A stretch of 64,000 nt of DNA, from the NCBI RefSeq assembly GCF_039523335.1, contig NZ_BAAAFC010000001.1:2666001-2730000 (forward strand), written 5' to 3'. The stretch is from Marinobacter szutsaonensis (GTDB lineage: Bacteria > Pseudomonadota > Gammaproteobacteria > Pseudomonadales > Oleiphilaceae). Shown here one piece after another: positions 1-29,366 of this stretch; position 1 is the stretch's first letter; each line of letters starts with the position of its first letter. The position numbers were made by a program, and so were the translations under genes. The notes beneath the pieces were generated by a model, which did no database searches, was not told the DNA's origin, and worked only from the letters and a program-made list of their open reading frames with translations.

Positions 1-480
1 TCCTGCAGTCCTTTTCCTGTTTCGGGCTCTGGAAAAATTTCCTCCGCCGGCCCTGAAACAGTTTTAAACGTACCGAAACAAATAATTAAATGCCTGTTAC
101 ACAATGATAATTTTGATTTGTCGGGTTGATTTACATGTATGGAATTTGGTGTGGGTTCGGGATAGACAGGTGTGCGTCAAGTGCTTGATTCCCTGTGGGA
201 GCACCAGGCAGATCTGTCGTTTTCACAGGCGGGAATGGGCGACAAAAAATTGACGAAAGCGGTTTTGCAAATTCTGTTTATCTATTTTAGGGAGGGAAAC
301 TATTTCGAAAACGTCTTAAAAATAGTTCTTGTTTCGGGAACTTTCTGAACGATGTCCCGATTGTCATTTCATGAATGGATCTTTTTTTACGGGTTCATCG
401 TGTCCGCGCGCCCCCTTCCCGAAATTGGGGCTTGAATATTTCGAGCGCTCGTTCTATTTTTGGCTTCCGGAGGTTGAGAT
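1..480. other. Leader/intergenic region, no gene
   Basis: No coding region can be supported in these 480 bases. The stretch is A+T-rich relative to its neighbours and carries three copies of the word TGTTTCGG(G) or its complement (19-27, 73-80, 330-338), an 8-bp inverted repeat AACTATTT/AAATAGTT (298-305 and 320-327), and a 10-bp palindrome CGAGCGCTCG at 442-451 just before the first gene. It probably contains the promoter and control sites of the downstream catabolic operon; no promoter could be assigned with confidence. Confidence 0.5.
442..451. promoter_or_regulatory. Palindrome upstream of the SDR gene, candidate operator
   Basis: CGAGCGCTCG is a perfect 10-bp palindrome, flanked by TT on the left and TTC on the right, lying 30 nt before the ATG of the first operon gene and just upstream of its GGAGG ribosome binding site. 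Palindromes of this size and position are typical of TetR-family operators; the TetR gene at 10281 would be a candidate ligand-responsive regulator. This is inference from position and symmetry only. Confidence 0.3.
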
Positions 481-1281
481 ATGAACAATTCCAATAACAC
501 GAACCCTGGCAATACAGACTGGTCCCTGCACGTTGGCGGCAAGACCGCATTGGTCACCGGCGCCGCTGGCGGTCTGGGCCATAGCTTTACCCAATGCCTG
601 CTCGAGGCCGGCGCCACGGTCATCGTCAGTGGCCGCCGCCGCGAGGCGCTGGAATCCCTCAAGAGCGATTTTCCCGAGCATGCCGGTCGAATCCATGTGG
701 TCACCATGGATGTCACCGACGAGGCGAGTGTTACCGAAGCCTTCGACACCATGGCCGATGACGTCGGCATTCCGGATGTGGTGGTTTCCAATGCCGGTGT
801 CGCCACCAGCAAAAAGGCGCTCGACCTGACTGGCTCCGACTGGGACCAGGTGGTCGACACCAATCTGAAGGGTTGCTGGCTGGTGGCCAATGAGGCCGCC
901 CGTCGTCTGTCCGCCATCAACCGGGGCGGCAGCATCATCATGATTTCTTCCATCCTGGGCCATCGGGTGGCCGGCAACGTGGCGCCCTACGCGGCGGCCA
1001 AGGCCGGTGTCGAGCAGTTGACCCGGGCACTGGCGCTGGAGTGGGCCCGCTATGGTATCCGGGTCAATGCGTTGGCGCCGGGCTACATCGAGACCGATCT
1101 GAACAGGGACTTTTTCGCCAGTGAGCCCGGTCAGAAAATGATTCGCCGCATCCCCCAGCGCCGACTCGGCCAGGCAGGGGATCTGAGCGGACCATTGCTG
1201 TTGCTGGCCTCGGACCTTTCCGACTACATGACCGGCAGCACCCTTGTGGTGGATGGCGGCCATCTTCAATCCTCGCTGTAA
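481..1281 (+). CDS. SDR-family oxidoreductase (LvaD-like position)
   Basis: Short-chain dehydrogenase/reductase of 266 aa, a classical SDR length. The Rossmann motif TGAAGGLG is at residues 26-33, the NAG motif at 104-106, and the catalytic triad Ser157, Tyr170, Lys174 is intact (YAAAK). Arginines after the second beta strand (GRRR, 51-54) suggest NADP(H). The start follows a GGAGG site. It is the first gene of a tight operon with an acyl-CoA dehydrogenase, an APH-type kinase, a small protein and an acyl-CoA ligase. In the P. putida lva pathway an SDR (LvaD) reduces the 4-oxoacyl-CoA to 4-hydroxyacyl-CoA, and that is the suggested role here. A 3-hydroxyacyl-CoA dehydrogenase role cannot be excluded. 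Confidence 0.85.
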   Translation: MNNSNNTNPGNTDWSLHVGGKTALVTGAAGGLGHSFTQCLLEAGATVIVSGRRREALESLKSDFPEHAGRIHVVTMDVTDEASVTEAFDTMADDVGIPDVVVSNAGVATSKKALDLTGSDWDQVVDTNLKGCWLVANEAARRLSAINRGGSIIMISSILGHRVAGNVAPYAAAKAGVEQLTRALALEWARYGIRVNALAPGYIETDLNRDFFASEPGQKMIRRIPQRRLGQAGDLSGPLLLLASDLSDYMTGSTLVVDGGHLQSSL

Positions 1282-1291
1282 GGAGCAGGCT

Positions 1292-2497
1292 GTGGACTTC
1301 AATCTGAACCCCAGGAACGAGTCGTACCGGAAACGCATCCGGGACTTTGTGGAACAGGAGCTGTTACCGCTGGAGCAGAACCCGGACGCTTATGACGAGC
1401 ATGAGAACATTGCGCCGGAATATCTGGAGCAGATGCGCGCCAAGGCCAGGGAGCAGGGCCTGTGGTGCCTGCAGATTCCCGAGCATCTCGGTGGCCAGGG
1501 GCTGGATATCTCCGGCATGGCGGCCTGCTACGAGGAGATGAACCGGTCCATCTTCGGGCCGGTGGTGTTCAACTCCGCAGCGCCCGATGACGGCAACATG
1601 ATCGTGTTGGCCAAGGTGGCCACCGAGGCCCAGCAGGAGCGTTGGCTCAAGCCCATTGTCGAGGGTCGGGTCCGGTCGTCGTTCGCCATGACCGAGCCAC
1701 CTCCCGGCTGCGGCTCGGACCCGGGCATGATGCAGACCACCGCCACCCGCAAGGGCGACCGCTGGGTGATCCATGGTCACAAGCATTACATCACCGGGGC
1801 CGGGGAAGCGTCCCATTTCATTTTGATTGCCCGTACCTCCGACGATACCCGCAAGGGCCTGAGCGCCTTCATGTTCCACAAGGACGATCCGGGCTGGGAA
1901 GTGGTGCGCCGCATTCCGATCATGGGGCCGGAGGAGCACGGTGGCCATTGCGAGATCCGTTTTGACGGCCTGGAAATTCCCGACGAGAACCGGCTGATGG
2001 AAGTGGGCGATGGCCTCAAAGTGACCCAGATCCGCCTGGGCACGGCCCGTCTGACCCACTGTATGCGCTGGCTGGGACTGGCCCGTCGTTCCCTGGAAAT
2101 CGCCACCGATTATGTCGAGAAGCGTGAATCCTTCGGCCAGACCCTGGCCCAGCGTGAAGGTGTCCAGTGGCTACTGGGCGAGGCCGCGATGGAGATCCAG
2201 ATCGGCCGGCTGCTGACCATGCACGCGGCCTGGAAGCTCGATCAGGGCGACTTTGCCCGCAAGGAAGTGTCCATGGCCAAGGTTGCAGTGGCCGATACCC
2301 TGCACAAGGCCGTCGATACCGCCATTCAGCTGTGCGGTGCCCGGGGCTATTCCAAGGACACCCCGCTGGAGTGGATCTACCGCTATGCCCGCCAGGCACG
2401 CCTGGTGGATGGCGCCTCGGAAGTGCACAAGATGGTGTTCTCGAAGCTGCTGCTGTCGGAGCGCACCGACTTCTGGCACTGGGGAGTGAAGCCCTGA
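1292..2497 (+). CDS. Acyl-CoA dehydrogenase, ACAD10/11-LvaC-like
   Basis: FAD-dependent acyl-CoA dehydrogenase-fold protein, 401 aa from the GTG at 1292, chosen because AAGGAG lies at 1280-1285; an ATG at 1244 would add 16 unlikely residues overlapping the SDR gene. The FAD/substrate loop FAMTEPPPGCGSDPG is present. Near the C-terminus the sequence reads DGASEVH with Asp373 where canonical acyl-CoA dehydrogenases have the catalytic Glu of YEGT; this DG..EVH form is the one I associate with the ACAD10/ACAD11 and LvaC group, which act on 4-phosphoacyl-CoA together with an APH kinase. The kinase gene follows directly (TGATG overlap). Inferred role: converting a 4-phosphoacyl-CoA to an intermediate of beta-oxidation. 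Confidence 0.85.
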   Translation: MDFNLNPRNESYRKRIRDFVEQELLPLEQNPDAYDEHENIAPEYLEQMRAKAREQGLWCLQIPEHLGGQGLDISGMAACYEEMNRSIFGPVVFNSAAPDDGNMIVLAKVATEAQQERWLKPIVEGRVRSSFAMTEPPPGCGSDPGMMQTTATRKGDRWVIHGHKHYITGAGEASHFILIARTSDDTRKGLSAFMFHKDDPGWEVVRRIPIMGPEEHGGHCEIRFDGLEIPDENRLMEVGDGLKVTQIRLGTARLTHCMRWLGLARRSLEIATDYVEKRESFGQTLAQREGVQWLLGEAAMEIQIGRLLTMHAAWKLDQGDFARKEVSMAKVAVADTLHKAVDTAIQLCGARGYSKDTPLEWIYRYARQARLVDGASEVHKMVFSKLLLSERTDFWHWGVKP

Positions 2498-3522
2498 TGT
2501 CTGCTTTGGCCGACACCTTCAGCAATTTTATTGTCCGGCAGACCGGCGCCCGCAACGCGCGGGTCATCGAGTTCAGCAAGCTCTCCGGGGGTGCCATCCA
2601 GGACAACTTCGGGTTAACCCTGGAGCTGGAAGGCGGCGACCGGCCGGGCGGGCAGGAATTCGTGGTCCGGCAGGACGCCCCCTCGGGGGTGGCGGAGAGT
2701 TTGTCCCGGTCGGAGGAGTTCAGGGTGTTGCAAGCGGCATTCGGCGCCGGAGTTACCGCTCCGGAGCCGCTCTGGCTGTGTGAGGACGCCGAAGTCAGCG
2801 GCCGTATCTTTTATGTCATGAGCCGGGCTTCCGGTACCGCCTCGCCACGGAAACTGGTGAAGGGTGATCTTACCGAGGATCAGCGTCGGCACCTCGTGCG
2901 CCGGCTCGGTGCCGAGCTGGCCCGGCTGCACACGGTGCGGCCGCCGATGGATTCGCTGGCTTTTCTCGAACTGCCGACAGGGAGCAATCCGGCCCTGAGC
3001 CGGGTGGGGCTGTACCGCCGCTACCTTGAGGAAATCGGGGAACCGCATCCGGTGCTGGAATGGGCCCTGAACTGGCTCGAGGACCACGCGCCGGAACCCG
3101 GTCCCACGGTGCTGTGCCACTGCGATTTCCGGACCGGAAACTACATGGTGGATGGTGACGAGTTGACCGCGGTGCTGGACTGGGAGTTTGCCGCCTGGAG
3201 TGATCCCTGCGAGGACCTCGGCTGGCTCTGCTGCCGCAGCTGGCGCTTCGGTGGTGATGACCGGGAAGTCGGTGGCGTTGGCGACAAAGCAGATCTTCTG
3301 GCCAGTTACCGGGAAGTGAGTGGCGCCGACATCGATCCGTCTGCAGTCAGCTACTGGGAAGTCATGGCGCTGGTACGCTGGGCGATGATCGCGCTGCAGC
3401 AGGCACGCCGGCATATGTCCGGAGAACAGCGCTCGCTGGAGCTGGCCCTGACCGGGCGCATGGTGGCCCAGATGGAATACGACCTGCTGAACCAGATTCC
3501 GGAATTGGAGGAAGGGCAATGA
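2497..3522 (+). CDS. APH-family phosphotransferase (LvaA-like 4-hydroxyacyl-CoA kinase)
   Basis: Kinase-like protein of 341 aa starting at the ATG that overlaps the previous stop codon. The aminoglycoside phosphotransferase/choline kinase signature is clear: catalytic loop HCDFRTGN (His208, Asp210, Asn215) and metal-binding DWE (228-230). Such proteins next to acyl-CoA dehydrogenases are not antibiotic-resistance enzymes; the family includes the APH domain of ACAD10/11 and LvaA of P. putida, which phosphorylates the 4-hydroxyl of 4-hydroxyacyl-CoA. The next gene overlaps by 4 nt. Function is assigned from family and operon context; the exact substrate is unknown. Confidence 0.82.
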   Translation: MSALADTFSNFIVRQTGARNARVIEFSKLSGGAIQDNFGLTLELEGGDRPGGQEFVVRQDAPSGVAESLSRSEEFRVLQAAFGAGVTAPEPLWLCEDAEVSGRIFYVMSRASGTASPRKLVKGDLTEDQRRHLVRRLGAELARLHTVRPPMDSLAFLELPTGSNPALSRVGLYRRYLEEIGEPHPVLEWALNWLEDHAPEPGPTVLCHCDFRTGNYMVDGDELTAVLDWEFAAWSDPCEDLGWLCCRSWRFGGDDREVGGVGDKADLLASYREVSGADIDPSAVSYWEVMALVRWAMIALQQARRHMSGEQRSLELALTGRMVAQMEYDLLNQIPELEEGQ

Positions 3523-3881
3523 TCAACGAACCGGATAGCCGCGACCTGCTGACCGAGGCCCGCCAGGTGTTGCTGGATTCCCTGGTACCGGATCTGGCCG
3601 GGGAACAGAAATACCAGGCCCTGATGATCGCCAACGCCATGGGCATGGCCATCCGGGAGATCGAGCAGCGGGCGCAAGGTGAGCCTGACGCCACCGACCG
3701 GTCGCTGTCGCAATTCCTGGCCGGACACCAGTTGCCGGATGACCCTTCAGAGGGTGAGCAGACCCTCGCCCGGGCCCTCCGTGACCGCCGGCTCGATGGC
3801 GATGATCCGGAATTGAGATCGGTTCTGAAGGGCATGACGGAGGCCCGGTTGCGAATCAACAATCCGGGCTTTCTGAAGTAA
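3519..3881 (+). CDS. DUF6285-type small protein (LvaB-like position)
   Basis: A 120-aa soluble protein whose start overlaps the kinase stop by 4 nt (ATGA), so the two are probably translationally coupled. It looks helical, with no signal peptide or membrane segment, and resembles the DUF6285 family found beside APH-type acyl-CoA kinases. In the lva operon the kinase LvaA needs a small partner, LvaB, encoded next to it; this gene occupies that position and has a similar size. A kinase-partner role is inference from synteny and size. Confidence 0.7.
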   Translation: MINEPDSRDLLTEARQVLLDSLVPDLAGEQKYQALMIANAMGMAIREIEQRAQGEPDATDRSLSQFLAGHQLPDDPSEGEQTLARALRDRRLDGDDPELRSVLKGMTEARLRINNPGFLK

Positions 3882-3906
3882 TCCGGACAGTCCAACACGG
3901 TGCGAT

Positions 3907-5520
3907 ATGAACAAGTACAAGAACCTGAACAAGACCGCCGCCAACCATTCCGCCCTGACCCCGCTGACTCTGCTGCAGCGCTCGGCGCGGGTCTACCCGG
4001 ACAAGCAGGCGGTCATCGACGATGACATGACCCTGTCCTACCGGGACCTGTATCGCCGTTGCCGGCAGATGGCGGATGCCCTGCGCGCCCGGGGCATTGC
4101 CTCCGGTGACACGGTTTCGATCCTGTGCCCCAACAGCCATGAGATGCTCGAGTCCCACTACTCGGTGCCCATGGCGGGGGCGGTGCTTAACGCCATGAAC
4201 ATCCGTCTGGACGCGGGCACCCTCTCATTCATCCTGGCCCACGGTGAGGCGCGGGTGCTGTTCTACGACACCCAGTGGGAAAATCAGGTCCGGGCGGCGA
4301 TTGCCGAGCTCGAGGTGCCGCCACTGCTGGTGGCCATCGAGCGCAAGGCCGGCGCCAGCGAAGGTCTGGCGGATCTGGATTATGAGTCCCTGCTCGCGGA
4401 GGGCGACCCGGAGGCATCGTGGTCGCAGCCGGACGAGGAGTGGGATGCCATCACCCTGAACTACACCTCCGGCACCACCGGCAATCCGAAGGGCGTGGTC
4501 TACCATCATCGAGGGGCCTATCTGGCCGCCATGTCGAACGCCATGGCCTTCGACATGACCGCCGAGACCGTCTACCTGTGGACCCTGCCCATGTTCCACT
4601 GCAACGGCTGGGCCTACACCTGGGCGATCACCGCCGTCGGCGGCACCCATGTCTGCCTGCGGGAAGTGGATACCCGGGAGATCTATCGTCGGATCGAGGA
4701 ATACGGCGTGACCCACATGTGTGGCGCCCCGGTGGTGATGAACATGCTGGTGCAGGATCTCGGCCGTGAGAATCTGACACTCTCGCGGCGCGCGCGATTC
4801 GCCCTGGGTGGTGCCGCCCCTCCCAGCAGCGTGATCCGCAAGGCGGAGGAAATCGGTTTCGAAATCACCCACCTTTACGGCCTGACCGAAACGTTTGGTC
4901 CGTCCACCCTGTGCGTGCCCCAGCCGGAATGGCAGGCGCTGCCGCTCGAGGAGCGGGCGATCAAGATGTCCCGCCAGGGCGTGCCCACCCATGGCCTGGA
5001 CGACGTGGACATCCTCGATATGGCCAGTGGCGAGCCGGTACCGGCCGATGGCAGGACCATGGGCGAGATCTGCATCCGGGGCAACACTGTGATGAAGGGC
5101 TATCTCAAGAACGCGGAAGCCACCGACAAGGCCTTCCGGAATGGCTGGTTTCATACCGGCGACCTGGCGGTCATGCACCCCGACCGCTACGTTGAAATCC
5201 GGGACCGGGCCAAGGACGTGATCATCTCCGGCGGCGAGAACATCTCCAGCCTGGAGGTGGAGGAAGTGCTCTACCGGCACCCGAAAGTCTCCGAAGCGGC
5301 GGTGGTGGCCATGCCCGACGAGAAGTGGGGCGAGGTGCCCTGTGCCTTCGTCAACCCCATCGATGACGGTGACGAGCTGACCGCCGAGGACATTATTGCC
5401 TTTTGCCGGGACAACATGGCGCACTTCAAGGCGCCGAGGAAGGTGGTGCTGGGCGAGCTGCCCAAGACCGCCACTGGCAAGATCCGCAAGAACATTCTCC
5501 GGGACTCCCTGTCCCGATGA
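3907..5520 (+). CDS. Acyl-CoA ligase, AMP-binding (LvaE-like position)
   Basis: Adenylate-forming ligase of 537 aa. It has the P-loop YTSGTTGNPKG (near residue 190), the GLTETFG motif, the TGDLAV and IRDRAKDVIISGGENIS hinge region, and the terminal catalytic lysine motif TATGKIRK. It would activate a carboxylic acid with ATP and CoA in the cytoplasm. It closes the enzyme block of the first operon, 25 nt after the DUF6285-type gene, and is followed by a five-gene ABC importer, so it probably activates the imported acid. Chain length is not readable from the sequence; short to medium chain is likely by family. Confidence 0.85.
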   Translation: MNKYKNLNKTAANHSALTPLTLLQRSARVYPDKQAVIDDDMTLSYRDLYRRCRQMADALRARGIASGDTVSILCPNSHEMLESHYSVPMAGAVLNAMNIRLDAGTLSFILAHGEARVLFYDTQWENQVRAAIAELEVPPLLVAIERKAGASEGLADLDYESLLAEGDPEASWSQPDEEWDAITLNYTSGTTGNPKGVVYHHRGAYLAAMSNAMAFDMTAETVYLWTLPMFHCNGWAYTWAITAVGGTHVCLREVDTREIYRRIEEYGVTHMCGAPVVMNMLVQDLGRENLTLSRRARFALGGAAPPSSVIRKAEEIGFEITHLYGLTETFGPSTLCVPQPEWQALPLEERAIKMSRQGVPTHGLDDVDILDMASGEPVPADGRTMGEICIRGNTVMKGYLKNAEATDKAFRNGWFHTGDLAVMHPDRYVEIRDRAKDVIISGGENISSLEVEEVLYRHPKVSEAAVVAMPDEKWGEVPCAFVNPIDDGDELTAEDIIAFCRDNMAHFKAPRKVVLGELPKTATGKIRKNILRDSLSR

Positions 5521-5650
5521 TTGGGCTGACCATGGTCAGCAGGAGGTTGCGATAGCGCGAACAACGCATTCAGACCCACGAAAACCGGTCCCGATGTAAC
5601 GGGCCTGACAGTTCCAGTGACAACAAAGACAAGAACACAGGAGCAATACC

Positions 5651-6874
5651 ATGAAAAAAACAAGCATGAAGAAACTGCTGGTTGCGATGACCGCAGCCGC
5701 AACTCTCGGTACCGCCGGGACCAGCTATGCCGAGGATCCGATCCAGATTGGCGGAATCTACATTCTGTCCGGCAGTGCTGCCACTTACGGTGAGTTTGCC
5801 CAGAAGGGTATTAACCTGGCGGTGGATGAAATCAACGCCTCCGGCGGCATCCTGGGTCGCCAGGTGGAAATGGTCTATGAGGATAGCCAGGGCAAAGCCT
5901 CGGTGGCCATCCAGGCCGCCCGGAAACTGGTCTATTCCGAGGGTGTTGAAGCCCTGGTGGGCCTGGACAGCTCGGGTGTTGCCCAGGGCATGGTGCCGAC
6001 CATGCCGGAGTTGCAGAAGCCGCTGATCATCACCCACGCCGCCACGCCGGATGTCACCGGCAAACTGTGTAACCCGTTCACCTACCGCATCAGCGTCAAC
6101 GTGGCCCAGAACATGAAGGCTGCGGCTCTGGTTGCGGCGGAAACGGATGCCACCAACTGGACCACCATCGGTCCGGACTACGCCTTCGGTCACCAATCCT
6201 GGGAATTCTTCGGTAATTACCTGAAGGAAATCAAGCCGGACGTGAACCTGATGTCGGAGACCAACTTCCCGCGCTTCGGTGCCGAGGACTTCACGCCATT
6301 CATCGACCGGGTGATGAACTCGGATGCCGAGGGTGTGCTGATCTCCGTCTGGGGTGGTGACCTGGTCAACTTCATCCGTCAGGCCAACACCCGTGGCTTC
6401 TTCGACAAGGACATGGAAGTGATGTTCACCGTGGGTGCCGCCACCGAGGTGCTGTCCGCCCTGGGTGAGGAAATGCCCGAAGGTGTGCACCTGTCTACAC
6501 GCTACTGGTATGACGCCTACGACAATGAAGTGAATGATCGCTTTGTCAAAGCCTACATGGATGCCTATGGTACGCCGCCCAGCTATAACGCCGAGGGTGC
6601 CTACGCCGCCATCTATGCCTACAAGCAGGCGATGGAAGCGGCCGGAACCACCGAGGGTCCGGCTGTGGCCAAGGCCCTCAGTGGCATGAGCATGGAAGCG
6701 CCGAATGGTACCGTGACCTTCCGTGCCGGAGATCACCAGGCCATGGTCAGCCCGAACTGGGGTGTTTCCGGCCCGATGCATCCCGAGCACGGTATCCGGA
6801 CCCTGACCAACCTGCAGATCTTTGACGGTGAAGAAGTAGCCCGCACCATCGAAGAGACCGGTTGCAAGCTCTGA
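5651..6874 (+). CDS. ABC importer substrate-binding protein, LIV type (system 1)
   Basis: Periplasmic binding protein of 407 aa with a Sec signal peptide of about 27 residues ending SYA-ED. The mature part opens with the typical hydrophobic-amino-acid/amide binding-protein pattern (IGGIYILSGSAATYG; INASGGILGRQVE). Members of this family bind amino acids but also fatty, aromatic and dicarboxylic acids. A strong stem-loop (6898-6921) follows the gene, a common arrangement that keeps binding-protein transcripts abundant relative to the permeases. The operon context with acyl-CoA enzymes suggests a carboxylic-acid ligand rather than leucine/valine. Confidence 0.85.
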   Translation: MKKTSMKKLLVAMTAAATLGTAGTSYAEDPIQIGGIYILSGSAATYGEFAQKGINLAVDEINASGGILGRQVEMVYEDSQGKASVAIQAARKLVYSEGVEALVGLDSSGVAQGMVPTMPELQKPLIITHAATPDVTGKLCNPFTYRISVNVAQNMKAAALVAAETDATNWTTIGPDYAFGHQSWEFFGNYLKEIKPDVNLMSETNFPRFGAEDFTPFIDRVMNSDAEGVLISVWGGDLVNFIRQANTRGFFDKDMEVMFTVGAATEVLSALGEEMPEGVHLSTRYWYDAYDNEVNDRFVKAYMDAYGTPPSYNAEGAYAAIYAYKQAMEAAGTTEGPAVAKALSGMSMEAPNGTVTFRAGDHQAMVSPNWGVSGPMHPEHGIRTLTNLQIFDGEEVARTIEETGCKL

Positions 6875-6897
6875 TCTGAACCTTTTCAAAAGCTTGC

Positions 6898-6921
6898 CGT
6901 GGCGCCCTCCGGGGCGCCACG
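6898..6921 (+). promoter_or_regulatory. Stem-loop between binding protein and permease genes
   Basis: CGTGGCGCCC and GGGCGCCACG pair perfectly (10 bp) around a UCCG tetraloop. No U-tract follows, so it is better explained as an mRNA-stabilising or processing hairpin, or a weak attenuator, than as a full terminator. Confidence 0.6.
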
Positions 6922-6950
6922 TAACCGGCCCTAACCTAATGAGGTAATCC

Positions 6951-7820
6951 ATGTCTGGCATCGGAGCGGCGTTGCTGAACAGTCTCGATATCGGGCTGCT
7001 GCTATTCATCATCGCAGTGGGTCTGAATATCGTGTTCGGTGTTCTGAACATCATCAACTTTGCCCACGGGGCTCTCTACATGCTGGGAGCCTACCTGGCC
7101 TTCACCCTGATCAACCTTGTGGGAATGCCCTTCTGGGCAGCCCTGTTACTGGCACCGATCGGTGTGGCCATCCTGGCCGTCATCATCGATCGGGTGCTGT
7201 TGCGATTCATCTACAGCCGGGACGTTGCGGACAGCCTGCTGCTGACCTTCGCGATCCTGCTGATCATCAATGAGAGCGTCCGCGTTGTCTGGGGTAGCGG
7301 CATCCACGTGGTCCAGCCACCTCAGCTACTCTCAGGCTCGGTCGAACTGCTGGGCAGTTCCGTGTCCACCTACAGTCTGTTTGTCATTGTCATCGGCCTG
7401 CTGTTGCTGGCCGGGCTCTGGTACCTGTTCAACCGCACCCGCGTCGGCCGCATCATGCGCGCCGCGGCGCTGGACCGGGACATGGCCGAAGCCCTGTGTA
7501 TCAACACCCGCATGGTGGTCACCGGCGTGTTTGCCTTCGGTGCCTGGCTGGCGGCCGTGGGCGGCGTGGTGGCAGCGCCGATGCGGGCACTGGACCCGGG
7601 CATGGGTGACAAGATCATCATCGAGTCCTTCATCGTGGTGGTCATCGGCGGCCTCGGCAGCTTCCCGGGAGCCCTGCTCGGTGCCATCATCCTCGGCCTG
7701 ATTCACGGCTTTGGCGGCCGCTATCTGCCGGAAGTGAACCTGCTGCTGCCGTTCCTTGGCATGGCGCTGGTTCTGTTGTTCAAACCCAATGGCATCATGG
7801 GCAAGGGGGCGACCGCATGA
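6951..7820 (+). CDS. ABC importer permease, LivH type (system 1)
   Basis: Inner-membrane permease of 289 aa, almost entirely hydrophobic with about eight membrane segments. It carries the family hallmarks NIVFGVLNIINFAHGALYMLG near the N-terminus and the conserved loop around VVVIGGLGSFPGALLG near residue 225-240. It pairs with the LivM-type permease that overlaps it by 4 nt to form the translocation pore. Start ATG follows AATGAGGTAATCC. Confidence 0.9.
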   Translation: MSGIGAALLNSLDIGLLLFIIAVGLNIVFGVLNIINFAHGALYMLGAYLAFTLINLVGMPFWAALLLAPIGVAILAVIIDRVLLRFIYSRDVADSLLLTFAILLIINESVRVVWGSGIHVVQPPQLLSGSVELLGSSVSTYSLFVIVIGLLLLAGLWYLFNRTRVGRIMRAAALDRDMAEALCINTRMVVTGVFAFGAWLAAVGGVVAAPMRALDPGMGDKIIIESFIVVVIGGLGSFPGALLGAIILGLIHGFGGRYLPEVNLLLPFLGMALVLLFKPNGIMGKGATA

Positions 7821-8764
7821 AGACCAGGATTCTGATGGGCCTTCTGGCCGTGGTGATCGCGGGGCTGATTGCGGTGCCCTGGATTGCCTCCTACTTCTAT
7901 ATTTTCATACTCACCGAGATCCTGATCCTTGGCCTGTTCGCGGCCAGCTTCAACCTGATCTTCGGCTACACCGGCATGCTCAGTTTCGGACATGCGGCCT
8001 TCTTCGGCATCGGCTCCTACGCCACCGCTCTGGTGCTGATCCACCTGGAGTGGCCGTTCCTGGCCTGCCTGCTGGTGTCCATGGGCGCTTCGGCGTTGCT
8101 GGCCCTGGTGATCGGCTTCCTGAGTGTCCGCCTCAACGAGGTCTACTTCGCCATGCTCACCCTGGCGTTCGGCATGATGGTGTTTGCCATCGCCTACCAG
8201 TGGCGCTCCGTGACCAACGGCAGTGATGGCCTGGCCGGTTTCACCCTGGGCTCCTTCGGCCTTGGTCTGGACCTCACCCTGGGTAACCCGGCGGTCTACT
8301 ACCATGTGGTGCTGGCCATCATCGCCATTGCCGCGGTAGTGCTGTACCTGATCTGCCGCAGTTCGTTCGGCCTGATCCTCAAGGCGATCCGCCAGAACCC
8401 GGAGCGGGTGTCCTTCGCCGGGCTGAACGTGCGTACCTACCGCCTGGTGGCGTTTGTCATCGCAGGTTCCTTTGCGGGCCTCGCCGGTGGCCTGATGGCC
8501 CCGTTCCTGAGGGTGGCCAGTCCGGAACTGTTGCACTGGTCCATGTCCGCCGAACCGGTTCTGATGGCGATTCTCGGCGGCACCGGCTATTTCCTGGGAC
8601 CATTCGTCGGCTCCGCGGTGTTCGTACTGCTGGAGACCTGGATCACCAGCTACACCGAGTCCTGGATGCTGGTTCTGGGCATCATCCTGGCGATGATGGT
8701 GATTTTCTTCCGCAAAGGTCTGCTGGGTACTGCCCTTGACTGGTGGATGGAGGTGAAGAAATGA
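7817..8764 (+). CDS. ABC importer permease, LivM type (system 1)
   Basis: Second membrane component, 315 aa, with multiple membrane segments and the LivM signature NLIFGYTGMLSFGHAAFFG (residues near 50-70) and GGTGYFLGPFVG near 255. It overlaps the LivH-type gene and, by ATGA, the following ATPase gene, so the permease and ATPase genes are translationally coupled. Confidence 0.9.
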   Translation: MKTRILMGLLAVVIAGLIAVPWIASYFYIFILTEILILGLFAASFNLIFGYTGMLSFGHAAFFGIGSYATALVLIHLEWPFLACLLVSMGASALLALVIGFLSVRLNEVYFAMLTLAFGMMVFAIAYQWRSVTNGSDGLAGFTLGSFGLGLDLTLGNPAVYYHVVLAIIAIAAVVLYLICRSSFGLILKAIRQNPERVSFAGLNVRTYRLVAFVIAGSFAGLAGGLMAPFLRVASPELLHWSMSAEPVLMAILGGTGYFLGPFVGSAVFVLLETWITSYTESWMLVLGIILAMMVIFFRKGLLGTALDWWMEVKK

Positions 8765-9543
8765 GCAAGCCGATCCTGACCATAGACAACCTCACCAAGC
8801 GTTTTGGTGGTGTCCACGCAGTCAACGGCATCAACCTGGAAGTCATGCCGAAGGAAACCATCGCCATCATCGGGCCCAACGGTGCCGGCAAGACCACCTT
8901 CTACAACATGGTGTCCGGGCGGATGCTGCCGACCGAGGGCAAGATCACCCTCGACGGGCAGGACATAACCGGGCTGCCGCCCCACAAGATCAGCCGTCTG
9001 GGGGTGTCCCGGTCGTTCCAGATCAACAACATCTTCCCGGAGATGACGGTGCAGGAGAACGTGGAGGTGGTGCTGTCGGCCTACCACGGCCACAGCCGCA
9101 AGCTGTTTAACATTGCCTCCCGCAATACCGGCATCCAGCAGGAGGCCGTGGAATACCTGAAACGGCTGGGCATTGACGGTCTGAAGGACCAGCGGGCCGA
9201 AGTCATCAGTTACGGTGACAAGCGCTTGCTGGAAATTGCCATGGTACTGGCAACACAGCCCAAATTGGTGCTGCTGGACGAGCCCACCGCCGGCATGACC
9301 CCGGACGAGACCCGGCGAACCACCAAACTGGTGAAGAGCCTGGCGGACAGTGGCGATTACACGTTTCTGATCACCGAGCACGATATGGACGTGGTGTTCA
9401 ATCTGGCCGATCGCATTCTGGTCATGCATCGCGGCGAAAAACTGTTTGCCGGCACTCCGGAGGAAGTGAAGAACCATCCGGAAGTTCGTGTCGCCTACCT
9501 GGGTGAGGAAGAAGAGGACGCGGTCGAGGAGGCCAACCCATGA
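8761..9543 (+). CDS. ABC importer ATPase, LivG type (system 1)
   Basis: Cytoplasmic ATPase of 260 aa from the ATG at 8761, which overlaps the previous stop by 4 nt; an upstream in-frame ATG at 8743 lies inside the permease gene and is less likely. Walker A GPNGAGKT is at residues 38-45, Walker B LVLLDEP and the switch histidine (ITEHDMD) are present. The ABC signature is degenerate, ISYGDKR, as is usual in LivG proteins. A short acidic tail (EEEEDAVEEA) ends the protein. Confidence 0.9.
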   Translation: MSKPILTIDNLTKRFGGVHAVNGINLEVMPKETIAIIGPNGAGKTTFYNMVSGRMLPTEGKITLDGQDITGLPPHKISRLGVSRSFQINNIFPEMTVQENVEVVLSAYHGHSRKLFNIASRNTGIQQEAVEYLKRLGIDGLKDQRAEVISYGDKRLLEIAMVLATQPKLVLLDEPTAGMTPDETRRTTKLVKSLADSGDYTFLITEHDMDVVFNLADRILVMHRGEKLFAGTPEEVKNHPEVRVAYLGEEEEDAVEEANP

Positions 9544-10244
9544 TTCTTGATGTTCGCAATATCCAGACCTTCTACGGCGAGAGCCAGGCGCTTCAGGGTG
9601 TCACGCTGCAACTGGACGAGGGCGAGACCGTCTGTATCCTGGGCCGCAACGGTGCCGGCAAGAGTACGACCCTGAAAAGCATCATGGGCCTGACGCCACC
9701 GAGATCCGGCGAGGTGGTCTTTGATGGCAAGCCGATCCACGGCCTGCCCGCCCATCAGATTGCCCGGGCCGGTATCGGTTATGTGCCGGAGGACCGGCGG
9801 ATTTTTCCGGGCCTGACGGTGCGGGAGAATCTGGATGTGGCTGCCTACCAGCGCAAGGGCAGCGCTGCCCGCTGGACCGTGGACGGTATCCTGAAGAAGT
9901 ACGAGATGCTGGGTGAGCGGGCCGATCAGGATGGCGCCACGCTTTCCGGTGGCCAACAGCAGATGCTGGCGGTGGCCCGGTCCCTGATGATCCAGCCGAG
10001 GCTGTTGTTGCTGGACGAGCCCAACGAAGGGCTGGCTCCGGTTATTGTGCAGCAGATCGGTGAACTGATCGACGATCTCAGCAAGACCACCACCATTCTG
10101 TTCACTGACCAGAGCGTGCGGTTCGCCCTCAAGCATGCCCGCAGGGCGTACATTCTTGAGAAAGGGCAGGTGGTGCACGAAGCACCGAGCGATGAGTTGC
10201 GTAAAGATCAGGCAACCCAGGACCGGTTCCTGTCGGTGGCGTGA
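9540..10244 (+). CDS. ABC importer ATPase, LivF type (system 1)
   Basis: Second ATPase, 234 aa, overlapping the LivG-type gene by 4 nt. Walker A GRNGAGKS, signature LSGGQQQ and Walker B LLLLDEP are intact. The switch region reads FTDQS instead of the usual LivF VEQN, a small variation at the histidine-equivalent position. It is the last gene of the importer; the TetR gene starts 36 nt further on. Confidence 0.9.
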   Translation: MILDVRNIQTFYGESQALQGVTLQLDEGETVCILGRNGAGKSTTLKSIMGLTPPRSGEVVFDGKPIHGLPAHQIARAGIGYVPEDRRIFPGLTVRENLDVAAYQRKGSAARWTVDGILKKYEMLGERADQDGATLSGGQQQMLAVARSLMIQPRLLLLDEPNEGLAPVIVQQIGELIDDLSKTTTILFTDQSVRFALKHARRAYILEKGQVVHEAPSDELRKDQATQDRFLSVA

Positions 10245-10251
10245 TCTGACT

Positions 10252-10257
10252 TATAAT
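10252..10257 (+). promoter_or_regulatory. -10-like hexamer upstream of the TetR gene
   Basis: A perfect TATAAT lies 23 nt before the GTG start of the TetR regulator, directly after the livF-type stop. No good -35 element is seen at the usual distance, so an activator or read-through transcription may contribute. Confidence 0.35.
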
Positions 10258-10280
10258 CCCCGCCGCAGGAGCAGACAGGC

Positions 10281-10973
10281 GTGGTACCAATGATTGAAAA
10301 CTATGAGGCATTTCGCAACGAGCTGAGCATGTCCAAGGAGGATGTGGTCCGCGAGGTTTATCGTCAGAACAAGGACAGGATCAGCATCAAGAAGGAGGCG
10401 ACGGCGGTCAAGAACCTGATCCGCATCATCGAGTCGACGCTGAGACTGGCCAATTCCAAGGGCTTCCATGCCATGACCCTGAGGGATCTGTGTTCGGACT
10501 CGGGCATGAGCATGGGCGGCCTTTATGCCTACATTCGCAACAAGGACGACCTGATCCACCTGATCCAGAGCCATGGCTTCACCATCACCCGCCGCACTTT
10601 GTTGCACTACACTGGCGAGGTGGATGACGTACGTGACAAGCTGTTCTCGGCGATCAAGGCGCATCTGTACCTGAGCGAACTGATGCGGGCCTGGTTCTAT
10701 TTCTCCTACATGGAAGCTAAGAGCCTGCCGGCACCGGAAAAGCGGGATGCGGTGGCCATCGAACTGGAGATCGAAGACATCTTCCTGGGTGTCATCGAGG
10801 ACGGTATCGAGGCAGGCGTATACCGGCCCAGGAATGCCCGGCTGGTGGCTTCGAGCATCAAGGCCCTGTTGCAGGACTGGTACCTCAAGCGCCGGAAATA
10901 CCGCGACCAGAATGTGGCCGTTGACGACTATGCTGCCTTTGTCAGGGATGTGATTGAAAGCTATCTGCTCTGA
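10281..10973 (+). CDS. TetR/AcrR-family transcriptional regulator
   Basis: A 230-aa regulator. The helix-turn-helix lies around residues 60-85 (MTLRDLCSDSGMSMGGLYAY), unusually far from the N-terminus because about 45 extra residues precede the DNA-binding domain. The GTG at 10281 is favoured because AGGAG lies 9 nt upstream; an ATG at 10290 would be too far from it. The C-terminal part is the ligand-binding domain. Placed between the first importer and the aldehyde dehydrogenase gene, it most likely responds to a CoA thioester or acid of this cluster. Target operators are not proven. Confidence 0.8.
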   Translation: MVPMIENYEAFRNELSMSKEDVVREVYRQNKDRISIKKEATAVKNLIRIIESTLRLANSKGFHAMTLRDLCSDSGMSMGGLYAYIRNKDDLIHLIQSHGFTITRRTLLHYTGEVDDVRDKLFSAIKAHLYLSELMRAWFYFSYMEAKSLPAPEKRDAVAIELEIEDIFLGVIEDGIEAGVYRPRNARLVASSIKALLQDWYLKRRKYRDQNVAVDDYAAFVRDVIESYLL

Positions 10974-11003
10974 GGGCGTTGACTCTCTCCTGTGAGGACT
11001 GTG

Positions 11004-12473
11004 ATGACTATCAGCTTGACGAATCCGGAACTGCTGCGCGAAAGCGCCTATATCAATGGCGAATGGGTCCAGGCCCGTTCCGGTGATGTGTTGCCGGTGA
11101 CCAACCCGGCCAATGGCGAACATCTGGCCAACGTGCCGGACATGGGCGCCGACGATACCCGACAGGCGATCCAGGCGGCCGAGGCGGCCTGGCCGGAATG
11201 GCGTGCCCGTCCTGCCAAGGAGCGGGCGGTTATCCTGCGCCGGTGGTTTGATCTGGTGATGCAGAACCAGGAGGACCTGGCCCGGCTGATGACCGCGGAG
11301 CAGGGCAAGCCGCTGGCGGAAGCCCGGGGCGAGGTGGGCTACGGCGCCAGTTTCATCGAATGGTTCGCCGAGGAGGCCAAGCGGGCCTATGGCGACGTGA
11401 TTCCGGGCCATGGCCGTGACAAGCGCATCGTGGTGATCAAGCAGCCCATTGGGGTGGTGGCGGCAATCACACCCTGGAACTTCCCGGTGGCCATGATCAC
11501 CCGCAAGGTGGCCCCGGCCCTGGCTGCGGGCTGTCCGGTGGTGGTCAAGCCGGCCGAAGATACCCCGCTGTGCGCCTTGGCCCTGGCGGCACTGGCGGAG
11601 GAAGCCGGTGTCCCGTCCGGGATTCTCAACATCGTGACCTGTTCGAAGGGCCGGGCGCCGGAGGTGGGCGAGGAGCTGACCACCAACCCGGTCGTCCGCA
11701 AGGTGTCGTTCACCGGCTCCACGCCGGTGGGCAAGCTGCTGATGCGCCAGGCCAGCGGTACGGTCAAGAAAGTGAGCCTGGAGCTCGGTGGCAATGCCCC
11801 GTTCATCATCTTTGACGACGCCGATCTCGATGCCGCGGTGGCCGGGTTGATGGCCTCCAAGTACCGCAACACCGGGCAGACCTGCGTGTGCGCCAATCGC
11901 ATCTATGTCCAGTCCGGTGTCTATGACGAATTTGTTGAGAAGCTCAAAGCTGCCGTCAGCAAGATGGTGGTGGGTGCCGGCCTCGAAGGTGACACCCAGC
12001 AGGGCCCACTGATCAATGCCGCGGCACTGGACAAGGTCCAGCGCCACATCGAGGATGCCACCACCAAGGGTGCAAAGGTGGCCCTGGGTGGCAAGGTGCA
12101 TGCGCTCGGCGGTACCTTCTTCGAGCCGACCATCCTTACCGACGTCACCCAGGACATGCTGGTGGCCAGTGAGGAAACCTTTGGCCCGGTGGCACCGCTG
12201 TTCCGGTTCGACACCGAGGAACAGGCGATTGCCATGGCCAACGATTCGGAATTCGGCCTGGCAGCGTATTTCTATAGCAACGACATCCGTCGCATCTGGC
12301 ACGTGGCCGAGGCCCTGGAAACCGGCATGATCGGTATCAACGAGGGCATTATTTCCACCGAGGCGGCGCCGTTCGGCGGTGTCAAGGAAAGCGGCCTGGG
12401 CCGGGAAGGTTCCCGTTATGGCCTGGACGAGTTCATGGAGCTCAAATACCTGTGCCTTGGCGGCATGCGCTAA
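11004..12473 (+). CDS. gabD: Succinate-semialdehyde-type aldehyde dehydrogenase
   Basis: NAD(P)-dependent aldehyde dehydrogenase of 489 aa from the ATG at 11004 (GAGGA just upstream). Catalytic Cys294 sits in NTGQTCVCANR and general-base Glu260 in LELGGN; the cofactor loop TPWNFP is present. The GQTCVCANR context is the one typical of GabD-type succinate-semialdehyde dehydrogenases. In this neighbourhood (4-hydroxy/4-oxo acid enzymes, CoA-transferase) oxidation of succinic semialdehyde or a related semialdehyde would make sense, but the substrate is inferred. Confidence 0.82.
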   Translation: MTISLTNPELLRESAYINGEWVQARSGDVLPVTNPANGEHLANVPDMGADDTRQAIQAAEAAWPEWRARPAKERAVILRRWFDLVMQNQEDLARLMTAEQGKPLAEARGEVGYGASFIEWFAEEAKRAYGDVIPGHGRDKRIVVIKQPIGVVAAITPWNFPVAMITRKVAPALAAGCPVVVKPAEDTPLCALALAALAEEAGVPSGILNIVTCSKGRAPEVGEELTTNPVVRKVSFTGSTPVGKLLMRQASGTVKKVSLELGGNAPFIIFDDADLDAAVAGLMASKYRNTGQTCVCANRIYVQSGVYDEFVEKLKAAVSKMVVGAGLEGDTQQGPLINAAALDKVQRHIEDATTKGAKVALGGKVHALGGTFFEPTILTDVTQDMLVASEETFGPVAPLFRFDTEEQAIAMANDSEFGLAAYFYSNDIRRIWHVAEALETGMIGINEGIISTEAAPFGGVKESGLGREGSRYGLDEFMELKYLCLGGMR

Positions 12474-12498
12474 AAAAACCGGTTGCGAGGAGAGTCGG

Positions 12499-13722
12499 AT
12501 GGCAGGCCCGTTGTCGCACCTGCGTGTGCTTGACCTATCCCGGGTACTGGCTGGCCCCTGGGCTGGCCAGATCCTCGGGGATCTGGGCGCGGAGGTGATC
12601 AAGATCGAGCGCCCGGGCACCGGGGATGACACCCGGTCCTGGGGGCCGCCCTATTTTCAGGGCGCGGATGGCAATGCCGAGTTGTCCGCCTACTTCCTGA
12701 CCGCCAACCGCAACAAGCAGTCCCTGGCCGTGGACATCGCCCATCCCGAGGGGCAGGCGCTGGTCCGCAAACTGGTGGCCGAGTCGGATGTGGTGCTGGA
12801 AAACTTCAAGGTCGGCGGCCTCAAGCGCTATGGCCTGGATTATGACAGCCTGAAACGCATCAACCCGAAGCTGATCTATTGCTCGATTACCGGGTTTGGT
12901 CAGGATGGCCCTTATGCCAGTCGCCCCGGCTACGACTTCCTGATCCAGGCCATGGGTGGGCTGATGAGCATCACCGGGCAGCCGGACGGCGAGCCCGGGG
13001 CCGGGCCTATGAAGGTCGGCGTGGCACTGACGGACATCATGACCGGGCTCTACGCCACCATTGGCGTGCTCGCCGCCCTCAGCCACCGGGACCGGACCGG
13101 GGAAGGGCAGTACGTGGAGGCCGCGCTGCTGGACGTGCAGGTGGCCTGCCTGGCCAACCAGGCTATGAATTACCTGACCACGGGCACCGCACCGGCCCGG
13201 ATGGGCAATGCCCACCCCAACATCGTGCCTTACCAGGACTTCCCCACCGCTGACGGCAACATGGTGCTGACGGTGGGTAATGACCAGCAGTTTGCCCGGC
13301 TATGCGACGTGCTCGGGCACCCGGAATGGGCCAGCGATGAACGCTTTGCCACCAACCGGGCCCGGGTGGCCAACCGCAAGGAGCTGATCCCGAAACTGAG
13401 GCAGGCCACGGTGATGCGCTCGACCCGGGAGTGGGTCGGGATCCTGGAGCAGGCCGGGGTGCCCTGCGGACCGGTGAACACCCTGGATCAGGTCTTTGAG
13501 GACCCCCAGGTGCTGGCGCGGGGCATGCGGCAGACTGTCACTCACCCTAGCCTGGGCGAGGTACCTACCGTTGGTAATCCAATCAAGCTGAAACTGACCC
13601 CGGTGGACTATCGCACGGCACCACCGTTACTCGGCGAGCAGTCCGAACAGGTGTTGCAACGGGTTGCCGGCCTGTCTCCCGGAGAGATCGAAGCGCTCAG
13701 GGAGCGCGGTGTGATCTCATGA
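12499..13722 (+). CDS. CaiB/BaiF-family CoA-transferase
   Basis: Family III CoA-transferase of 407 aa. The ATG at 12499 follows GAGGAGAG; a longer reading frame starting inside the aldehyde dehydrogenase gene is rejected. The N-terminal motif VLAGPWAGQILGDLGAEVIKIE is typical, and Asp179 in ALTDIMTG corresponds to the catalytic aspartate that forms the acyl anhydride. It would move CoA from a donor such as succinyl-CoA to a free acid. It lies 25 nt after the aldehyde dehydrogenase gene and is probably cotranscribed with it. Confidence 0.85.
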   Translation: MAGPLSHLRVLDLSRVLAGPWAGQILGDLGAEVIKIERPGTGDDTRSWGPPYFQGADGNAELSAYFLTANRNKQSLAVDIAHPEGQALVRKLVAESDVVLENFKVGGLKRYGLDYDSLKRINPKLIYCSITGFGQDGPYASRPGYDFLIQAMGGLMSITGQPDGEPGAGPMKVGVALTDIMTGLYATIGVLAALSHRDRTGEGQYVEAALLDVQVACLANQAMNYLTTGTAPARMGNAHPNIVPYQDFPTADGNMVLTVGNDQQFARLCDVLGHPEWASDERFATNRARVANRKELIPKLRQATVMRSTREWVGILEQAGVPCGPVNTLDQVFEDPQVLARGMRQTVTHPSLGEVPTVGNPIKLKLTPVDYRTAPPLLGEQSEQVLQRVAGLSPGEIEALRERGVIS

Positions 13723-13763: not shown

Positions 13764-14555
13764 TCATTGCCCCCAGAATTGTGCCGGTCGCTTGGCGAGA
13801 AACGCGGCGACCCCTTCCTGGAAGTCCGACGTTCCAACCGCCTCCAGAAAGGCCTGTCTCTCCGCTTCCAGGTATCCGGAAAGGGTGCCGCCGAAGGCAT
13901 CATCCGAGAGGCGTCGGAAGGCGGCATAAGCTCGGCTTGGGCCCCTGGCAACCTTGCGGGCAAGGTCGGTCAGGGCGTCGCCAAACTCGCCCTCAGGGGC
14001 AACCTGATTGATCAGCCCCCAGTCCAGCGCCTCCTCGGCGGTCAAGGTCTGGCCCAGCAGCATCAGCTGACTGGCCCGACCTGCACCGATGCGGCGGTTC
14101 AGGAACCAGGTGCCCCCGCAGTCCGGGACCGTGCCGATGCCATCGTAGGCCACCATGAACCGGGCGTTGGCGTCAGAAATAATCAGGTCCGCGCCCAGGG
14201 CCAGGCTCAGCCCGGCGCCGGCGGCAAAGCCCCGGACCCCGGCAATGACAGGAGCATTGAGTTCGCGCAGGATGAGAATGGCCGGGTTGAGGGCATCCAG
14301 TAGAGCATTGACCACCTCCCGGGCCTGTTCGGGACCGCCGGCCATGCTGGCGACATCCCCGCCGGCCATGAAGGCACGGCCGGCTCCGGTCAGCACCACG
14401 CACCGAAGCCCGGGCTGGTCTCTCAGGGCTTTGGCGGCCTCCAGAAAGGCCTCGGCCATGGGGATGTCGATGGCATTCAACGCGTCGGGACGGTTGAAGG
14501 TCAGGGTCGCCACGCCGCTGTTGTCGTCGAACTGCAGGATCACGGGGGAGGTCAT
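13764..14555 (-). CDS. Enoyl-CoA hydratase/isomerase (crotonase family, PaaG-like motif)
   Basis: Crotonase-fold protein of 263 aa starting at the ATG complementary to 14553-14555, preceded by AGGAA; a longer frame reaching 14852 would overlap the divergent operon. The oxyanion-hole segment GRAFMAGGDVASM and the second loop FAAGAGLSLALGADL are present. The active-site region reads TVPDCGGTWFL, i.e. Asp in the PDxGGTW motif shared with PaaG-type isomerases, instead of the Glu of classical hydratases. It may therefore be an isomerase. It converges with the CoA-transferase gene and diverges from the second ABC operon. Confidence 0.82.
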   Translation of the reverse strand: MTSPVILQFDDNSGVATLTFNRPDALNAIDIPMAEAFLEAAKALRDQPGLRCVVLTGAGRAFMAGGDVASMAGGPEQAREVVNALLDALNPAILILRELNAPVIAGVRGFAAGAGLSLALGADLIISDANARFMVAYDGIGTVPDCGGTWFLNRRIGAGRASQLMLLGQTLTAEEALDWGLINQVAPEGEFGDALTDLARKVARGPSRAYAAFRRLSDDAFGGTLSGYLEAERQAFLEAVGTSDFQEGVAAFLAKRPAQFWGQ

Positions 14556-16406: not shown

Positions 16407-16407
16407 G

Positions 16408-17451: not shown

Positions 17452-17522
17452 CCGTGTTTCAACGAGTCTTTCTCCGAGAGACCGTGCAACAGCAACAACA
17501 AGAAGCAGCAAGGAGAAGAAAC

Positions 17523-18731: not shown

Positions 18732-18739
18732 GGGGCTGT

Positions 18740-27383: not shown

Positions 27384-27486
27384 TGCTGGCCTGTTCGGCT
27401 GAAGACCAGCCGAACTGGTTCAGAACGATCGGGGAGAGAGAAGCAATGACCAATGCTGCGACAAATGCGGAGATCATGACTTTCAT
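27361..27486 (-). CDS. Small membrane peptide of the formate dehydrogenase operon
   Basis: A 41-residue reading frame with a very strong ribosome binding site (AAAGGAGG, 7 nt before the ATG). It encodes one hydrophobic helix (VMISAFVAALVIASLSPIV) followed by a short polar tail. It lies between the cytochrome b subunit (4-nt overlap) and the TusA-like gene. It may be a small accessory subunit of the membrane formate dehydrogenase; no family recognised. Confidence 0.6.
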   Translation of the reverse strand: MKVMISAFVAALVIASLSPIVLNQFGWSSAEQASSESVRLD

Positions 27487-28655: not shown

Positions 28656-28742
28656 CAGAGCACTCCAACGGAATGAACAAGAAGACTTCGTTGCCTCGAT
28701 GCATGCCGGGGCCCCGAAGGGCCCCGGAACACTCAGGCCAGT

Positions 28743-29351: not shown

Positions 29352-29366
29352 GGTCTACACCTCTTG

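Follow-up and report, generated by a model that had tools for sequence, protein, structure and literature searches.

Gene organization of the locus

We analyzed a 64,000-nt stretch of the Marinobacter szutsaonensis genome (the window, in whose numbering all positions are given), checking its open reading frames with Pfam and NCBIfam scans, and describe here a forward-strand cluster in which genes for a putative 4-hydroxy acid pathway are joined to an ATP-binding cassette (ABC) importer. The cluster opens with a short-chain dehydrogenase/reductase (SDR) gene (481..1281; Pfam adh_short_C2), encoding a predicted LvaD-like 4-oxoacyl-CoA/4-hydroxyacyl-CoA oxidoreductase, followed by an acyl-CoA dehydrogenase (ACAD) gene with a GTG start (1292..2497) whose product, a predicted 4-phosphoacyl-CoA lyase, carries the motif DGASEVH and residues R248, H256, R259 and D373. 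Next come a predicted LvaA-like 4-hydroxyacyl-CoA kinase of the APH type with an ATG start and the motifs HCDFRTGN and DWE (2497..3522), a DUF6285 protein of the LvaB family, presumably an accessory subunit of the kinase (3519..3881; PF19802, 66 bits against a cut-off of 28), and an LvaE-like acyl-CoA ligase of the PRK08162 subfamily (3907..5520). The importer is of the HAAT/LIV type and is complete. It consists of a periplasmic solute-binding protein (SBP) with a Peripla_BP_6 domain and, by eye, a Sec-type signal sequence (5651..6874), two BPD_transp_2 permeases of the LivH (6951..7820) and LivM (7817..8764) types, and two ATPases, one of the LivG type with BCA_ABC_TP_C (8761..9543) and one of the LivF type assigned by the Pfam scan (9540..10244). 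From the SDR to the second ATPase, the spacings are a gap of 10 nt, overlaps of 1 and 4 nt, gaps of 25, 130 and 76 nt, and then three overlaps of 4 nt. A first-pass annotation of this DNA had listed the same enzymes and a full LIV-type ABC set on one strand, and all of it was borne out, coordinates included, with small corrections to the starts of the ACAD (GTG at 1292), kinase (ATG at 2497) and first ATPase (8761) genes. The same gene order recurs in other genomes, so the arrangement is not a product of chance.

As a reference for the Pseudomonas lva operon we used the annotated operon of the P. aeruginosa plasmid p12939-PER, which stands in for that of P. putida KT2440 and comprises a PrpR-type regulator, a kinase, an annotated lvaB, an ACAD, an SDR, a ligase, a DUF485 protein and a symporter; Stutzerimonas S116 has this set plus a histidine phosphatase. 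The window proteins are 48% (kinase), 40% (DUF6285), 42% (ACAD), 53% (SDR) and 56% (ligase) identical to their p12939 counterparts. PF19802 is matched by the p12939 LvaB and by the equivalents from four further relatives (five of five), and the window and p12939 ligases both pass the PRK08162 cut-off of 677 bits (811 and 856 bits). Among NCBIfam models there was none for DUF6285/LvaB at E 0.001, and none of those listed names LvaA or LvaC. The DUF485 protein and cation-acetate symporter (LvaF/LvaG) were matched neither in window positions 1-25000 nor in loci L011-L025 of Marinobacter; a PrpR-type sigma54 regulator (LvaR) had no match in window positions 1-25000, where a TetR gene is present instead. 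Compared with the lva loci L004, L010 and L074, an ABC importer does replace the symporter genes and a TetR gene the PrpR-type regulator, as had been proposed before, and the regulator now gains a conserved candidate operator.

The ACAD and its active site

In its DGASEVH motif the window ACAD has Asp where usual ACADs carry Glu. In mouse ACAD11, according to an excerpt of PMC12440821, one helix next to the catalytic D753 bears R626, H634 and R637, which modelling places around the 4-phospho group of the substrate; in the same excerpt, substitution at R626/H634/R637 causes the phospho-intermediate to pile up, and substitution at R626/H634/R637/D753 abolishes or strongly cuts turnover by the ACAD domain. 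Residues R248, H256, R259 and D373 of the window ACAD align with these four in the same frame, and the columns are near-invariant over 80 ACADs from kinase loci. These rows were picked for HCMR, so only the conservation of R248 and D373 is independent of the selection; 11 ACADs without HCMR from the same loci are distant. With this residue set, the 48% kinase identity and the LvaB-family DUF6285 protein, the lva-type chemistry proposed in the first-pass annotation appears sound, and phosphate elimination by the window enzymes is well supported by sequence.

We placed the window ACAD in a maximum-likelihood tree of 91 rows, which leaves out KT2440 LvaC and ACAD10/11. One clade, of 61 rows, took in the window ACAD and another, of 18, p12939 LvaC, both with support of 100/100 in a tree whose bootstrap had not fully settled and whose long outgroup branches were flagged by the program; a Thermus ACAD stands apart from both. 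Grouping of the APH or ACAD proteins with unrelated families, named beforehand as evidence that would speak against lva-type chemistry, was not seen, and the window ACAD and LvaC share one HCMR clade. The window ACAD lies outside the LvaC clade itself. ACAD10/11 are not its closest kin either: it is 42% identical to LvaC and scores 215-226 bits to ACAD11 and 4hr3. Its clade is found in Alpha-, Beta- and Gammaproteobacteria, Myxococcota and one Acidobacteria bin.

The two clades are told apart by 41 positions. Beside the catalytic Asp, all 60 window-clade rows read have LVDGA (one N-terminally cut row was missed) and all 18 LvaC-clade rows have YDGP, while ACAD11 and 4hr3 read LADGP. At positions 372, 369 and 310 the window clade has V, A and M where LvaC has Y, F and W; ACAD11, with A, L and L, resembles the window clade in being without LvaC's aromatic rings. 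From general knowledge of ACADs we take these three residues to line the acyl pocket, in which case the window site would be roomier than that of LvaC. Membership in a sister clade with different fixed residues means that the substrate need not be levulinate, and it suggests one other than, or broader than, C5 levulinate. Levulinate thus keeps its place among the possible substrates proposed earlier, with less certainty.

The host genome holds a second module of related type (L106, G000:C2:258000-275000; 7193-13241 within it), with genes for a LysR regulator, an ACAD carrying HCMR and DGPDEV, an SDR, an APH protein, a histidine phosphatase and another SDR, and without DUF6285. Against 4hr3 its ACAD reaches 560 bits and the window ACAD 226; against ACAD11 the scores are 457 and 217. 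On this comparison the host also has an ACAD11-type system, and with that a special role of the window operon gains in likelihood. The genome also carries prpB, for propionyl-CoA use, which counts in favour of the pathway proposed below.

The kinase and the DUF6285 protein

The residues H, D, R, G and N of HCDFRTGN and the whole of DWE are invariant over 14 aligned kinases. The window kinase is 98% identical to that of M. pelagius. Fusions of kinase and DUF6285 occur in 7 of 120 listed kinase homologues, and a structural model of one of them (P0075; pLDDT 90, pTM 0.87) is confident in both domains except the linker, with DUF6285 helical. Its fold matches fall mainly on the kinase part (residues 1-339), the nearest being 3dxp, 3ats and 25-hydroxysteroid kinase. 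According to an excerpt of PMC6692424, LvaB is recovered with LvaA in a pulldown, and growth on levulinate requires both genes; the fusions and the confident fusion model fit this pulldown. DUF6285 has a single match in the host genome, the one in the window; it has no PDB sequence relative at a useful E-value (best 0.044) and no mention in our literature search. For R86 and R176, the CoA-contact arginines of the ACAD11 kinase, the kinase alignment gave no confident counterpart, and we claim none. A quick kinase tree follows the ACAD clades loosely, with five changes of partner type, of which at least three are forced, where shuffles average 17.

Some relatives show other settings for these genes. 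In L099 (G122), an APH gene (37%) and a DUF6285-like gene adjoin an ACAD that has no HCMR, along with a ligase and a further LIV-type ABC system, from which it appears that APH/DUF6285 pairs may serve other pathways too. On a Cupriavidus plasmid (L008), the neighbours of kinase and DUF6285 include a LIV-type ABC system and a gene of the indolepyruvate-ferredoxin-oxidoreductase type, and no HCMR ACAD was found in that stretch. A histidine phosphatase gene lies directly 3' of LvaB/DUF6285 in L003, L006, L007, L010, L097 and L098, and not in the window.

Candidate promoter and operator, and the TetR gene

A candidate promoter, TTGAAT-N17-TATTTT (432..460, forward strand), lies 20 nt 5' of the SDR start, and its spacer holds the palindrome CGAGCGCTCG (442-451), a candidate TetR operator. 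The TetR-family gene assigned by Pfam (10281..10973, forward strand), whose product we presume to be a repressor acting at 432-460, is kept with the cluster, and mostly with the operator. Searching 23 related loci (L011-L033) with a 16-mer consensus and at most two mismatches, we found the site in 19, near the start of the first gene as estimated from gene length; both Advenella loci carry a related palindrome. The other 57 named loci (979 kb, both strands) gave nine occurrences, and in L052 and L076 the site lies just 5' of the SDR in such a cluster. The host genome has one exact site and four with three mismatches; a reversed control pattern gave nine sites at up to three mismatches, so the four are background.

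In G011 and G063 the site also lies 5' of the ligase, and in G122 5' of the SBP; all three genomes are without the SDR-ACAD-kinase-DUF6285 core. No palindrome 5' of the TetR gene is common to the relatives. Mostly travelling with the TetR gene, the palindrome looks like one half of a local repressor-operator pair. It may bear some likeness to the sites of fatty-acid TetR regulators, for which excerpts of PMC5343134 gave no motif, and we do not claim it.

Behind the TetR gene lie an aldehyde dehydrogenase (ALDH) gene of the succinate-semialdehyde type (10992..12473; TIGR01780, 743 bits against a cut-off of 646), a probable operon member that is found in some relatives only, and a CaiB-type CoA-transferase gene (12502..13722), a possible member whose nearest model, succinate-glutarate CoA-transferase, gave 540 bits and did not reach its cut-off of 750. 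These three genes continue the same-strand run to 13722, so the transcription unit is probably longer than 481-10244.

Further along the window, an enoyl-CoA hydratase gene lies on the opposite strand (13764-14552), and the stretch 14713-21348 holds a second LIV-type ABC system (an ATPase, two permeases, an SBP and a further ATPase-like open reading frame at 18740) and, after it, an AMP-binding ligase that differs in its C-terminal domain. On the minus strand at 27483-32252, translations read by eye resemble the cytochrome, iron-sulphur and large subunits of a formate dehydrogenase.

Distribution of the cluster and its importer

We examined the neighbourhoods of the best 80 of at least 444 kinase relatives (the named loci), scoring gene presence by identity thresholds; several loci are cut at contig ends. 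An HCMR ACAD is present in 71 of the 80, of the window type in 58 and of the LvaC type in 13. DUF6285 is found in 66 loci, the SDR in 60, the ligase in 41, TetR in 22, the SBP in 17, and a PrpR-type gene and a histidine phosphatase in 6 each. All 17 SBP loci have a window-type ACAD; 13 are from Marinobacter and 4 from Alcaligenaceae, and synteny of the importer extends to Castellaniella, Allopusillimonas and Pollutimonas. It accompanies TetR in 16 of the 22 TetR loci.

A survey of 124 genomes of the genus Marinobacter (kinase search at E<=1e-40) found the kinase in 46, as the window type (>=66% identity) in 32, one of them a fragment, and as an LvaA-like type (45-48%) in 9, with one genome having both. 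The SBP is present in 34. Window-type kinase and SBP occur together in 29 genomes (Fisher p 7e-20, relatedness ignored), and in all 29 they lie 3.1-3.4 kb apart on one contig. The kinase occurs without the SBP in G012, a real case, and in G087 and G088, both at contig ends. The SBP occurs without the kinase in G006, where the cluster is split over two contigs, and in G011, G063, G122 and G049. G011 and G063 carry a ligase-importer-TetR unit and G122 an importer-TetR unit. A flanking pair of genes, gyrB- and recF-like by eye, is shared by all three units, which probably makes them one event or lineage. In G049 (L091) a ligase-importer-ALDH unit adjoins a PrpR/TRAP lva cluster; no SDR-ACAD-kinase-DUF6285 set of its own, TetR or operator was found in that stretch.

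Some smaller observations concern the same genomes. G011, G063 and G122 do have other HCMR ACADs, with DGPTEV or DGPDEV (L104, L103 and L105), although these genomes lack the window-type core. The SBP gene is interrupted in G051 and G072 (an in-frame stop; a split into two pieces), reflecting decay or sequencing error. A palindrome 5' of the SBP, GCTGACCATGGTCAGC, recurs in several Marinobacter and not in other groups.

Proposed pathway and alternatives

We consider it likely that the cluster is an inducible, TetR-repressed operon for a 4-oxo or 4-hydroxy carboxylic acid, which it would import and degrade by phosphate elimination. The SBP and ABC proteins would bring in the acid, and the ligase would convert it to its CoA thioester. 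The SDR would reduce a 4-oxoacyl-CoA to the 4-hydroxyacyl-CoA, the kinase with its DUF6285 subunit would phosphorylate the 4-hydroxyl, and the ACAD, through Asp373 and FAD, would eliminate the phosphate to give a 2-enoyl-CoA for ordinary beta-oxidation. TetR, bound at the palindrome at 442-451, would repress the operon until an acyl-CoA of the pathway or the acid itself appears. For the proposed roles of importer and regulator, support comes from synteny, co-occurrence and the operator.

Several observations weigh against this proposal. The operator consensus was missed in 4 of the 23 loci (L027, L029, L030 and L032), all with TetR, and the promoter hexamers are weak, with 8 of 12 matches and a site below the threshold of a consensus promoter scan. 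Kinase and ACAD types have been re-paired, as the five changes on the quick tree (at least three of them forced) show, and the co-occurrence statistic for kinase and SBP ignores relatedness. Six of the 22 TetR loci are without the importer (M. caseinilyticus, Alcaligenaceae strain CAII-56, two Advenella, the Candidimonas bin L030 and the Ectothiorhodospiraceae bin L036). G011, G063 and G122 have importer and TetR without SDR, ACAD, kinase or DUF6285, which makes the importer independent of the core. A model of the SBP (pTM 0.85) has 3i45 and 4maa as its nearest solved structures, and since aromatic-acid, urea and amide binders are among the SBPs of known structure closest to it, the fold gives no pointer to a 4-hydroxy acid.

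The locus could instead be a plain levulinate/4-hydroxyvalerate operon, with the C5 substrate of the P. putida lva operon and a swapped transporter and regulator. We think this rather unlikely. The ligase and SDR are close to LvaE (56%) and LvaD (53%), with both ligases above the PRK08162 cut-off, and in G049 the coreless ligase-importer-ALDH unit has a PrpR-type lva cluster for a neighbour, as if the cores were interchangeable; the ACAD, however, belongs to a separate clade set off by 41 positions, among them 372 (V in place of Y), 369 (A in place of F) and 310 (M in place of W), and ACAD11 has A, L and L at these three, like the window clade without LvaC's aromatics. Less probable again is an importer for some other solute, such as unsubstituted short- or medium-chain or aromatic acids, that feeds the same ligase, with the core an add-on in its regulon. 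It would explain why importer and TetR, with the ligase in two of three cases, occur without the core behind the same operator in one Marinobacter lineage, and the SBP's structural neighbours among aromatic-acid, urea and amide binders are in keeping with it. But the importer lies beside the core in 29 of the 34 SBP-bearing Marinobacter genomes, with a 30th (G006) split over two contigs, and in four Alcaligenaceae loci too, and one operator stands ahead of both.

Least probable, and in our view very improbable, is action of the kinase on another hydroxyl, at a tertiary or other position as in 25-hydroxysteroid kinase, with elimination by the ACAD from a differently substituted acyl-CoA. That enzyme is among the nearest folds of the kinase part of a 64%-identical fused relative, and the window kinase matches it by sequence at 56 bits; set against this, the whole kinase is 48% identical to LvaA, and the fold alignments of the relative give 19-20% to 25-hydroxysteroid kinase.

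Within the proposal of a 4-oxo/4-hydroxy acid operon, a further step is possible but in our judgment holds at less than even chances: clusters of the window type may be a second, separately evolved 4-hydroxy-acid pathway, in which an ACAD with a more open site beside the catalytic Asp would serve longer or branched 4-oxo/4-hydroxy acids and the ABC system would be the first dedicated high-affinity importer for them. Among the matches listed in our literature search, no title dealt with ABC uptake of levulinate or 4-hydroxy acids, and "lva operon", "levulinic acid" and "ABC transporter" never came together in one paper of the library searched, where three papers mention both Marinobacter and levulinic acid. 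Beyond the first-pass annotation, the analysis adds the importer linkage, the operator-TetR pair, the ACAD sister clade, the second, ACAD11-type module and the kinase-DUF6285 fusions. Sources of 4-hydroxy acids include lipid peroxidation, lactones and biomass-derived levulinate. The operon offers a simple genetic system for chain-length preference, the effect of DUF6285/LvaB on the kinase, and marine uptake of 4-hydroxy acids, and the importer and TetR/operator pair could find use as parts in the bioconversion of levulinate or lactones.

Comparison with known systems

The closest parallel is the Pseudomonas lva operon (p12939-PER, Stutzerimonas S116, Pseudomonas sp. 10-1B), with which the window shares enzyme types A to E, the PF19802 LvaB family, an ACAD with HCMR and Asp, and a PRK08162 ligase. 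The two differ in transport (a LIV-type ABC importer in the window; DUF485 and an acetate-type symporter in lva), in control (TetR and a palindrome in a sigma70-like site; a PrpR-type regulator), in the window's gene order of D-C-A-B-E and in its ACAD, which belongs to a clade sister to that of LvaC.

ACAD10/ACAD11 and their bacterial orthologues share with the window the R/H/R/D set and, as predicted here, the combined kinase and ACAD chemistry; unlike them, the window has kinase and ACAD on separate polypeptides and has DUF6285. The window ACAD reaches 215-226 bits to ACAD11/4hr3, against 451-560 for the other ACAD of the same genome. Papers of 2024 and 2025 reportedly ascribe the phosphate-elimination route to ACAD10/11 of mammals. 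Our score of 193-199 bits for p12939 LvaC to ACAD11 conflicts with the 62% and 56% identity of LvaC to the ACAD10/11 domains given in an excerpt of PMC11342911. PMC10949508 mentions levulinate and 4-hydroxyvalerate in its module table only, and the words acyl-CoA dehydrogenase are absent from the main text of PMC8449060, on 25-hydroxysteroid kinase. That kinase (9fsg, 9ft5) has the APH fold and ATP-driven activation of a hydroxyl for elimination in common with the predicted window kinase, and differs in its steroid substrate. The PrpR/TRAP lva clusters of other Marinobacter (G049, G073) belong to the same genus and have the same enzyme types as the window, but combine them with an LvaC-like ACAD, a histidine phosphatase, a TRAP transporter and a PrpR-type regulator.

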